In this document: piece by piece, positions 10,576 to 12,772 of the stretch | Numbering within the stretch: the first letter of the stretch is position 1 | Layout: each line of letters begins with the position of its first letter | Program-made: the position numbers and the translations under genes | Notes under the pieces: model-generated | Told to the model about the DNA's origin: nothing | Database searches by the model: none | What the model saw: the letters and a program-made list of their open reading frames with translations, nothing else | NCBI GenBank assembly: GCA_036270875.1 | Contig: DATBBR010000097.1 | Coordinates: forward strand, 1-40,689 | From: Acidimicrobiales bacterium | GTDB taxonomy: Bacteria > Actinomycetota > Acidimicrobiia > Acidimicrobiales > AC-9 | Length of the DNA stretch: 40,689 nt | Direction of reading: 5' to 3'

Positions 10576-11187
10576 ATGGACAGTGCCCGGCTGGAGGCCT
10601 TCAGCGACGGGGTCTTCGCCGTGGCCATCACCCTGCTCGCCCTCGACCTGGTGGTGGCGGGACCCGGCCACGGCACCCTCGCCCATCAGCTCGCAGACAA
10701 GTGGCCCGCGTTCGCCGCCTACTTCATCAGCTTCCTGACCATCGGCATCATCTGGGTCAACCACCACACGATCTTCAAGAACCTGGCCGACATCGACCGG
10801 ACCCTTCTGTTCCTCAACCTCCTGCTGCTCTTCTTCGTGGTGAGCATCCCCTTCGCCACCTCGACGATGGCGACCTACCTGACCCTGGGCGGCACCGACT
10901 CCCACATCGCCGCCGCCATGTTCATGGGGGCGTACGAAGGCATGTCGATCGCCTTCGCCCTGATCTTCTGGTGGTCGATCCGCCACGAGCACCTGAAGGT
11001 TCCCCTGCCTCCCGCCGACGCCCGCCGGGCCATGGTCCGGTTCGGCATGGGTCACATCTTCTATATCGCGGGGATCGGCATCGCCTTTGTCAGCGCGACC
11101 GCCACGCTCGTCATCAGCGCCGTCGTCGCCGCCTACTACGTCGTCGAGCAGACCCCCAGGCGGGACGCGGCAGCGGACGCGGGCTAG
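10576..11187 (+). CDS. TMEM175/DUF1211-family membrane protein (potassium channel-like)
   Basis: 203 aa, strongly hydrophobic. The N-terminus MDSARLEAFSDGVFAVAITLL carries the RxxxFSDG motif (Arg5, Phe9-Ser10-Asp11) that defines the TMEM175 family. About six membrane helices follow: 10-28, 46-64, 74-98, 110-133, 155-175 and 175-195. Bacterial relatives form cation channels with a preference for K+, in the cytoplasmic membrane. The single six-helix repeat fits the bacterial tetrameric form. It starts 6 nt after the phosphodiesterase remnant and ends facing the whiB7-like gene. The physiological role here is unknown. Confidence 0.88.
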   Translation: MDSARLEAFSDGVFAVAITLLALDLVVAGPGHGTLAHQLADKWPAFAAYFISFLTIGIIWVNHHTIFKNLADIDRTLLFLNLLLLFFVVSIPFATSTMATYLTLGGTDSHIAAAMFMGAYEGMSIAFALIFWWSIRHEHLKVPLPPADARRAMVRFGMGHIFYIAGIGIAFVSATATLVISAVVAAYYVVEQTPRRDAAADAG

Positions 11188-11296: not shown

Positions 11297-11623
11297 CTAG
11301 GCCGTCATCTGGGCTGGAGGGTTCTTCGGGGGACGCCCGCGCTTGCGCTTGAACGGCAGGATGCGGCCGTTGGCCAGGAGCTGGCCGCCCCAGACACCCC
11401 AGGGCTCGCGCCGGCCGAGCGCACCCTCGAGGCACGGGCCGGAAAGCGGGCAGCCGGCGCAGATGGCCTTCGCCCGGGCGATGTCGTCGAGCTGTTCGGA
11501 GAAGAACAGCTCGACCATGCCGGCAGTTCCGTCGCGACAGCTGGCCTCGTCCCAGTCGGCGCCTGACCGCGCGTCGGTGAGCAGGGCCTCGATGCCTCTG
11601 GCTTCTTGGGCTGCGGCGAGCAT
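11297..11623 (-). CDS. whiB7: WhiB7-like iron-sulphur transcriptional regulator with AT-hook
   Basis: 108 aa. Four cysteines that would bind a [4Fe-4S] cluster are at 29, 55, 58 and 64 (CAGCPLSGPC), followed by the WhiB turn EPWGVWGGQLL (73-82). The C-terminus FKRKRGRPPKN is a basic tail with an RGRP AT-hook, the feature that separates WhiB7 from other WhiB paralogues. WhiB7 binds the primary sigma factor region 4 and AT-rich DNA next to the -35, switching on intrinsic drug-resistance genes and its own gene; the partner RpoD is encoded in this window at 19147-20487. The 5' leader of about 340 nt carries an upstream ORF and a terminator (separate entries). The whiB7 assignment rests on AT-hook plus leader architecture. 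Confidence 0.85.
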   Translation of the reverse strand: MLAAAQEARGIEALLTDARSGADWDEASCRDGTAGMVELFFSEQLDDIARAKAICAGCPLSGPCLEGALGRREPWGVWGGQLLANGRILPFKRKRGRPPKNPPAQMTA

Positions 11624-11685
11624 CTCGCCATCCCCTTTCGGTCAGGATCGGATCTCCAGACAGCCGCAGCGAGCTGCACGGAGGG

Positions 11686-11717
11686 AAACAAAAAGGCCGC
11701 CGGAGATTCCGGCGGCC
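11686..11717 (-). terminator. Intrinsic terminator/attenuator in the whiB7 leader
   Basis: On the minus strand GGCCGCCGG pairs perfectly with CCGGCGGCC (11695-11703 with 11709-11717, 5-nt loop), followed at once by TTTTTGTTT. It lies 62 nt upstream of the whiB7-like ATG and 29 nt after the upstream-ORF stop, where it would stop most transcripts before the regulator gene. Confidence 0.9.
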
Positions 11718-11746
11718 TCTGAGCCAAGCTCTGGAGCGGAGGATGT

Positions 11747-11920
11747 CTATCCAGTGGCTGCTCCAGGCGGGCTCGTCGGCCGCACGGCCTTAGAGGCGTT
11801 GGCGGTCATACGCCCCTTGTGGTCTGCCGCAAAGGGCGAGAGGGGGTGACCGCCGCCCGGCCGCGTCCAGATGAGGGCGTGGCGACCGGCCGTGAGGTCG
11901 ATCACAGCGACGTTCTGCAT
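11747..11920 (-). CDS. Upstream ORF (57 codons) in the whiB7 leader
   Basis: ATG 11920 is preceded at 7 nt by AGAGGGAG, a good ribosome binding site. The frame encodes 57 residues starting MQNVAVIDLTAGRHALIWTR and ending SPPGAATG. It begins about 40 nt after the predicted transcription start and stops just before the terminator hairpin. In mycobacterial whiB7 and Streptomyces wblC, slow translation of such a leader ORF under antibiotic stress prevents terminator formation. The 3' part contains GCGGCC, which could pair with the GGCCGC arm of the terminator as an anti-terminator. The peptide itself resembles nothing I know; its role is probably in being translated. Confidence 0.7.
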   Translation of the reverse strand: MQNVAVIDLTAGRHALIWTRPGGGHPLSPFAADHKGRMTANASKAVRPTSPPGAATG

Positions 11921-11967
11921 CAACGCGCTCCCTCTTGCCTGGCGCGAGGACCTTCCCCGCAGCAGCC

Positions 11968-12005
11968 ATCCGACCACGACCCCCGGGGCACCGTCAACCG
12001 ATTTT
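11968..12005 (-). promoter_or_regulatory. WhiB7-type autoregulated promoter
   Basis: Reading the minus strand: AAAAT (12005-12001), 3 nt, TTGACG (-35, 11997-11992), 18 nt, TCGGAT (-10, 11973-11968). An AT-rich block three bases upstream of the -35 is the DNA feature known for WhiB7-dependent promoters. The predicted transcript start is near 11961. Confidence 0.65.
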
Positions 12006-12019
12006 CCGGTCCGGCCCGA

Positions 12020-12772
12020 TCACTCCCCCGGCAGGGACACCCTCGCCGTCACCAGGGGGCTCAGCAGCGCCGAGGTGGCCGCCGCCACTGGCGCCCGGCG
12101 GTCGGCATGGCCCAGGGCCACCAGCGCACGTCCCCGAGCGTCGACGATCGCCGCACCGGCCTCGAGGCACACCAGCGTGCCACCCAGATAGTCCCAGGGG
12201 CCCTGGCCGGAGCGGCTGCAGTCGACATAGGCGTCCACGGTTCCCTCGGCGACGGCGCACAAGTCCAGGGCGGCGGCTCCCAAGGCCCGGAACTGCCCCC
12301 AGCCGAGGTGGCGCGCCGGATACCCCGACAGGGCGACGACCGCTCGGTCGAGGATCTCGCACCCCGACGCCGTGAGCGGCCGCCCGGCTCGCCGGGCCCC
12401 GCCCCCGCGCACCGCCTCGAACCGGACGCCGCTGGCCTGGTTGGCCACCACCGCGACCCGTGGACCCTCCGCATCGACCGCGCACAGGCTGGTGGCGTAC
12501 CACGGCAGCCCGTGGGCAGCGTTGGTCGAGCCGTCGACAGGATCCAGCACGGCCACGACGGGGCGCCCCATCCCGGCCAGGCCCGACTCCTCGCTCAGCA
12601 CTCCCAGGCCCGCTTCCAGGAGGATCGGAACGGCGGCCGCGTCAGCGACCAGGTCCGACCGGTATTGGCTGGGCCGGGTGCCGGCCAGACCCCAGTCGTC
12701 GAGGTCGGCCAGGGCCGCGGCCACGGCCGTCACGGCCTCGTGGAAAAGCTCCAGCAACTGGTCGTCGTCCAC
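12020..12772 (-). CDS. Inositol monophosphatase family protein
   Basis: 250 aa with the Mg2+-dependent sugar/inositol phosphatase motifs: LSEESG (Glu61, Glu62), LDPVDGSTNAAHG (Asp77, Asp80, the DPIDGT motif) and GPWDYLGG (Trp193, Asp194). Relatives hydrolyse myo-inositol-1-phosphate, histidinol phosphate, fructose-1,6-bisphosphate or 3'-phosphoadenosine 5'-phosphate. Inositol use is plausible in an actinobacterium, but the substrate is not fixed by these motifs. GTG 12772 has TAACGT 9 nt upstream and no Shine-Dalgarno. The gene is divergent from the unknown gene at 12835 and ends 15 nt before the AT-rich box of the whiB7 promoter. Confidence 0.88.
   Translation of the reverse strand: MDDDQLLELFHEAVTAVAAALADLDDWGLAGTRPSQYRSDLVADAAAVPILLEAGLGVLSEESGLAGMGRPVVAVLDPVDGSTNAAHGLPWYATSLCAVDAEGPRVAVVANQASGVRFEAVRGGGARRAGRPLTASGCEILDRAVVALSGYPARHLGWGQFRALGAAALDLCAVAEGTVDAYVDCSRSGQGPWDYLGGTLVCLEAGAAIVDARGRALVALGHADRRAPVAAATSALLSPLVTARVSLPGE

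Follow-up and report, generated by a model that had tools for sequence, protein, structure and literature searches.

A probable whiB7-type attenuation leader in the Acidimicrobiia and the amino-acid repertoire of its upstream peptides

The window analyzed here, a whole stretch of 40,689 nucleotides from an Acidimicrobiales bacterium (contig DATBBR010000097.1, assembly GCA_036270875.1), carries a leader that is very probably a ribosome-mediated transcription attenuator of the whiB7/wblC type, with the WhiB7 orthologue of this Acidimicrobiia member under its control. This leader type is already known, and the Acidimicrobiia example is a further member of it. The part that specialists may find surprising, offered here as a hypothesis, is the class-wide amino-acid repertoire of the upstream peptides.

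The leader, its gene and their conservation

The leader lies on the minus strand and is read from 12005 down to 11297 in the order AT-box and -35 element, weak -10 element, Shine-Dalgarno (SD) sequence, upstream open reading frame (uORF), hairpin, second SD sequence and whiB7. The individual features are as follows.

11992 to 12005, minus strand: AT-box and -35 element AAAAT-CGG-TTGACG, read from the sequence; the same element is found in most leaders of the class
11968 to 11973, minus strand: weak -10 element TCGGAT with an 18-nt spacer, read from the sequence; TCGGAT, TCCGAT or GCGATA lies at similar spacing in orthologues
11928 to 11935, minus strand: SD sequence of the uORF, AGAGGGAG, from the sequence and orthologue comparison
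11747 to 11920, minus strand: uORF of 57 codons, MQNVAVIDLTAGRHALIWTRPGGGHPLSPFAADHKGRMTANASKAVRPTSPPGAATG, with the ATG at 11920 and the stop codon TAG at 11749-11747
11712 to 11783, minus strand: predicted extended antiterminator with the uORF stop codon inside, from folding, own-partner pairing and covariation
11686 to 11717, minus strand: predicted intrinsic terminator with a 9-bp GC stem, loop AATCT and TTTTTGTTT; the hairpin GGCCG(C/T)(C/T)GG is conserved in orthologues
11633 to 11639, minus strand: SD sequence of whiB7, AAAGGGG, read from the sequence
11297 to 11623, minus strand: whiB7 orthologue of 108 amino acids with C29, C55, C58 and C64, GVWGG and an RGRPPK AT-hook, from Pfam, orthologue alignment and a PDB profile search

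An AT-rich element set 3 nt ahead of the TTGAC -35 is a hallmark of whiB7/wblC leaders, and the window has one: AAAAT occupies 12005-12001 and TTGACG 11997-11992, with CGG between them. The window has a single match to the pattern AAAAT-N3-TTGAC-N-AT, and 100 shuffles gave none. With TCGGAT taken as the -10 element, transcription is predicted to start near 11961. The terminator hairpin, GGCCGCCGG-AATCT-CCGGCGGCC at 11717-11695 followed by the T5GT3 tract, is the top terminator-like site in 1.8 kb. An earlier note, made from the sequence alone, had described the AAAAT-3nt-TTGACG element with a -10, an upstream ORF of 57 codons with its own SD sequence, a perfect 9-bp GC hairpin with T5GT3 and an AT-hook WhiB gene after the terminator; direct reading of the minus strand bears all of these out, save that the -10 site, while present, matches the consensus only weakly. 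No Rfam family attains its gathering score on the leader of the window. Downstream of whiB7 lies a convergent gene for a TMEM175-family potassium-channel-like protein (Pfam PF06736, window 10576-11187, plus strand).

The 108-residue protein matches the Pfam Whib model (E 4.5e-14, 53 bits). The four cysteines and the G(V/I)WGG motif that define the Wbl iron-sulfur domain are present, C29, C55, C58, C64 and GVWGG being invariant in ten orthologues, and the C-terminus carries the AT-hook KRKRGRPPK. In a PDB profile search with the ten-orthologue profile, WhiB7 (7kif) is the top match (81.9 bits, E 2.6e-22); the best structure other than WhiB7 is WhiB1 (44.6 bits, E 9.8e-11), and WhiB3 and WhiB4 also fall far below WhiB7. 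A closer match to another WhiB paralogue, which the earlier note had named as the case against the assignment, is thus not what the search returns. The genome has ten Wbl matches, and RGRP occurs in the window's protein only. By its nearest solved relative and as the sole Wbl protein of its genome with RGRP, the protein is, at the sequence level, a WhiB7 orthologue. Its closest named relatives come from metagenome-assembled genomes of Acidimicrobiales and Acidimicrobiia.

At the E-value used, whiB7 orthologues were found in 43 of 59 order-level relatives and in 112 of 296 genomes of the class. Comparison of their leaders, suggested in the earlier note, found both the uORF position and the terminator conserved: in 62% of 165 leaders, an SD-led ORF of 45-95 codons has its stop codon 22-36 nt before the terminator; shuffles give 1.4 ± 0.7% (at most 3%), and a 30-nt shift of the uORF end point leaves 0.6%. 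In a second leader sample the AT-box was present in 73, the terminator in 86 and the uORF in 79 of 97 leaders. Its recurrence ahead of whiB7 throughout the class shows that the layout is more than chance. A covariance model built from 23 leaders matched only 5 of 198 class genomes; this low yield, which comes from variable loop lengths and strict search filters, is not evidence of absence.

Several class members have two whiB7-like copies about 1 kb apart (G008:C1:679925-681171, G204:C1:3754013-3755197, G082:C1:4345979-4347344). Family f23, with small genomes of 1.5-2.2 Mb, has no whiB7 match in any genome listed, possibly a loss accompanying genome reduction. Among genomes of the phylum outside the class (L183-L186, L188, L197-L199), an AT-box, a uORF and a GGGCC(A/G)TCGG or AAGGCCGTGGG terminator are in part found before whiB7, so the layout extends beyond the Acidimicrobiia.

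The upstream peptide and its amino-acid repertoire

All three species of the genus (the window and two congeners) share a uORF length of 57 codons, without indels. Changes within the genus fall on the three codon positions as 16/19/34, with pN/pS 0.49, and by these counts the uORF is shown to be under weak purifying selection. In more diverged uORF groups pN/pS is 0.4-1.0, which is weak evidence for constraint at the peptide level; the peptide therefore evolves fast. Between families, uORFs are about 19% identical and share no motif beyond a C-terminal RP, which encodes the antiterminator strand. Clustering of 129 uORFs by alignment score was uninformative, with 110 of them chained into one group.

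We counted amino-acid types in uORF bodies, leaving out the last 12 codons because these are constrained by the RNA fold. The background consisted of conserved protein stretches of the same length; it replaced the longest ORFs per locus, which probably included antisense frames. In a first sample of 72 non-redundant uORFs, the mean was 17.65 types, compared with 15.5 ± 0.2 in conserved protein stretches and 16.1 ± 0.14 when bases were shuffled within codon positions. A second sample of 57 uORFs, each less than 50% identical to the first sample, gave nearly the same result (17.49 versus 15.54 ± 0.25 and 15.86 ± 0.16). When each of 53 families was represented by a single uORF, with a median pairwise identity of 19%, the mean was 17.68 versus 15.60 ± 0.26 (0 of 2000 samples). 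All 20 amino acids are present in over a third of the uORFs versus about 4%, and the other frames of the same DNA encode 13-14.5 types. The uORF of the window itself encodes 17 types, with Cys, Glu and Tyr absent.

A near-complete repertoire suggests, on the strength of these counts, that the peptide may sense not only antibiotics but also the supply of all amino acids. Stated as a selective claim, selection in the Acidimicrobiia would keep nearly every amino acid represented at least once in the whiB7 leader peptide; a shortage of any one charged tRNA, like any ribosome drug, would then stall the ribosome and turn WhiB7 on, in contrast to the Ala-rich mycobacterial leaders. We hold this claim tentatively, at somewhat less than even probability. 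When a once-only residue is lost at its aligned site, it reappears elsewhere in the peptide in 71.5% of cases versus 69.0 ± 3.2 expected, which is not significant; part of the signal may therefore be ancestry or nucleotide-level constraint. In mycobacteria, the amino-acid composition of the uORF reportedly sets the sensitivity of whiB7 to starvation (Poulton 2024 is said to have found this), and finding almost the full repertoire throughout a class would carry that result further. In the literature searched, whose scope excluded the primary whiB7/wblC leader papers, we found no paper describing such a repertoire in a leader peptide. With some 130 mostly unrelated peptides having it, a single peptide reporting on all amino acids becomes a testable hypothesis.

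The strongest rival explanation, which we nevertheless consider unlikely, sees the uORF as a drug-specific arrest peptide in which particular residues, for instance the single Trp, halt the ribosome together with a ligand, in the manner of ErmCL or TnaC, instead of any stall sufficing. In favour of this, Trp occurs exactly once in 93 of the 129 non-redundant uORFs (variance/mean 0.27) and in 15 of 18 uORFs from Mycobacteriaceae, and at aligned sites it is the most conserved residue (78%). However, its distance from the stop codon varies from 0 to 80 residues, identity between families is low, and the only common motif is the RP of the antiterminator strand.

Terminator, antiterminator and the proposed switch

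The earlier note had pointed to a GCGGCC within the uORF as able to pair with the terminator arm. This pairing proved to be conserved and specific to its own partner, and can now be refined as the outermost helix of a longer predicted antiterminator. The outer helix joins GCGGCC (11783-11778) to GGCCGC (11717-11712) of the terminator arm, the next joins GAGCC (11774-11770) to GGCTC (11725-11721), and the inner one joins CTGGAGC to GCTCCAG; the inner stems enclose the uORF stop codon. Comparison of leaders gave the pattern GCGGCC-NNN-G(A/G)GCC ... GG(C/T)(C/T)C-NNN-GGCCGC as an extended hairpin. The window's antiterminator has a minimum free energy of -40 kcal/mol (z -4.2), and in 84 leaders the region has a mean z of -3.3, whereas control stretches from these leaders give -0.6 and -0.9.

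In 64 non-redundant leaders, the ends of the uORFs pair more strongly with the terminator-arm region of their own leader (-23.9 kcal/mol) than with that of swapped partners (-20.1; 0 of 5000 permutations), a test from which shared ancestry is not wholly removed and which the terminator arm alone passes as well. Variant terminator arms are often matched by corresponding uORFs, GGCCGCTGGG occurring with CCCAGCGGC and GGCCGTCGGG with CCCGACG. An alignment of 23 leaders has 95% of its cells paired. Its covariation score of 0.209 compares with 0.140 after shuffling (0 of 500) and with no more than 0.079 after sliding; this support belongs to the inner helix, because the outer helix is nearly invariant. 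Folding and alignment together show a predicted terminator and antiterminator that are mutually exclusive, with covarying pairing.

At equilibrium, the terminator dominates in the full-length free RNA (P about 0.999), and equilibrium folding combined with a ribosome walk did not separate the two states, since the terminator wins there. The switch must therefore be kinetic and decided during transcription, and a model that folds the growing transcript was used instead. In this model, the 5' arm of the terminator is paired upstream with a probability of about 1 through roughly 20 nt of growth, and the antiterminator is displaced only when about 3 nt of the terminator's 3' arm are left unexposed. 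Antiterminator probability exceeds 0.8 in 95% of 84 leaders. As modeled, readthrough must involve kinetic trapping, which is beyond what static folding can show.

For the whiB7/wblC systems the attenuation mechanism is established (PMC11550727, PMC12421871, PMC13236596). We infer termination, readthrough, inducing signals, autoregulation and regulon in the Acidimicrobiia by the following scheme, which agrees with that published mechanism. The AT-box promoter would start transcription, presumably activated by WhiB7 itself together with the housekeeping sigma factor. A ribosome that reaches the uORF stop codon would cover the 5' side and the interior of the antiterminator, the 9-bp terminator would form and the transcript would end near 11686. 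A ribosome stalled or slowed in the uORF body, by a ribosome-targeting drug or an uncharged tRNA, would let 11783-11712 fold on emergence; this fold would capture the 5' arm of the terminator, and RNA polymerase would read through into whiB7.

Could control be mainly translational, with the leader fold hiding or freeing the whiB7 SD sequence? A leader of about 340 nt with strong folding would lend itself to this, but the T-tract after the hairpin is conserved among orthologue leaders, the partner of the antiterminator is the terminator arm and not the SD sequence, and the latter lies about 46 nt past the T-tract, which makes this account very improbable. That the hairpin merely terminates the upstream same-strand gene for an inositol-phosphatase-family protein (12772-12020), whiB7 having its own downstream promoter, is scarcely credible, since that gene stops at 12020, about 300 nt before the hairpin, with the AT-box promoter and the SD-led uORF in between, the layout precedes whiB7 in many families, and the stretch from the hairpin to whiB7 showed no promoter-like site. 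Transcription attenuation is the reading that we retain.

Candidate regulon and known systems

AT-box-like sites number 9-12 per genome versus 1-3 in reversed controls. Two such promoters, AAAT-CCC-TTGAC and TAAT-AAT-TTGAC, are conserved in congeners before genes for a DHA2/EmrB-type drug efflux pump and an MsbA-related ABC exporter, which makes the pump and the exporter candidate members of a WhiB7 regulon. Congener comparison placed the conserved sites as follows.

G000:C78:43447 (L145): AT-box-like site, conserved in the congener locus L151
G000:C49:6771 (L130): AT-box-like site, conserved in the congener locus L126

Further AT-box-like promoters in the same genus precede genes for a DUF3039 protein and an ArsR-type regulator (L142/L135; L139/L132/L134).

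In the literature searched, no paper names Acidimicrobiia and WhiB7 together, so that the earlier description of a little-studied lineage appears fair. The whiB7 attenuation circuit is known from antibiotic producers and mycobacteria, and is now placed across a mostly uncultured environmental class. From this spread over the Acidimicrobiia, the inducible ribosome-stress response looks old and widespread in Actinomycetota.

In Streptomyces coelicolor, the wblC leader (Lee, Lee and Roe 2022, Mol Microbiol 117:179) has a uORF, a Rho-independent terminator and an antiterminator, and PMC11550727 and PMC12421871 state that many ribosome drugs, as well as amino-acid starvation, induce it. The window's leader shares these three elements, a likeness taken from the published description, and differs in lineage and in the sequence of its uORF. 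A promoter pattern search did not find the AT-box element in Streptomycetaceae-like loci.

The Mycobacterium whiB7 leader (Burian 2012/2018, Poulton 2024) combines an AT-rich element, a uORF, a terminator and an AT-hook WhiB7, as described in PMC11550727 and PMC13236596. The window's leader resembles it in all four, including the 3-nt distance of the AT-rich element from the -35. The AAAAT-N3-TTG element recurs in the Mycobacteriaceae-like loci examined here, whose uORFs often have just one Trp (for example L201, L203 and L280). Their 18 uORFs are 25% Ala with little excess variety (17.6 versus 16.8 types, z 2.0), whereas in Acidimicrobiia uORFs the Ala share is 15% and the excess is marked (18.6 versus 16.6, z 12.5).

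Amino-acid attenuators of the ilvBNC/trp type, of which M. tuberculosis ilvB1 is an example (PMC13236596), likewise let the position of the ribosome on a leader peptide select terminator or antiterminator. While those leaders repeat codons for the end product of one pathway, the peptide of the window's leader contains nearly every amino acid and its target is a stress regulator.
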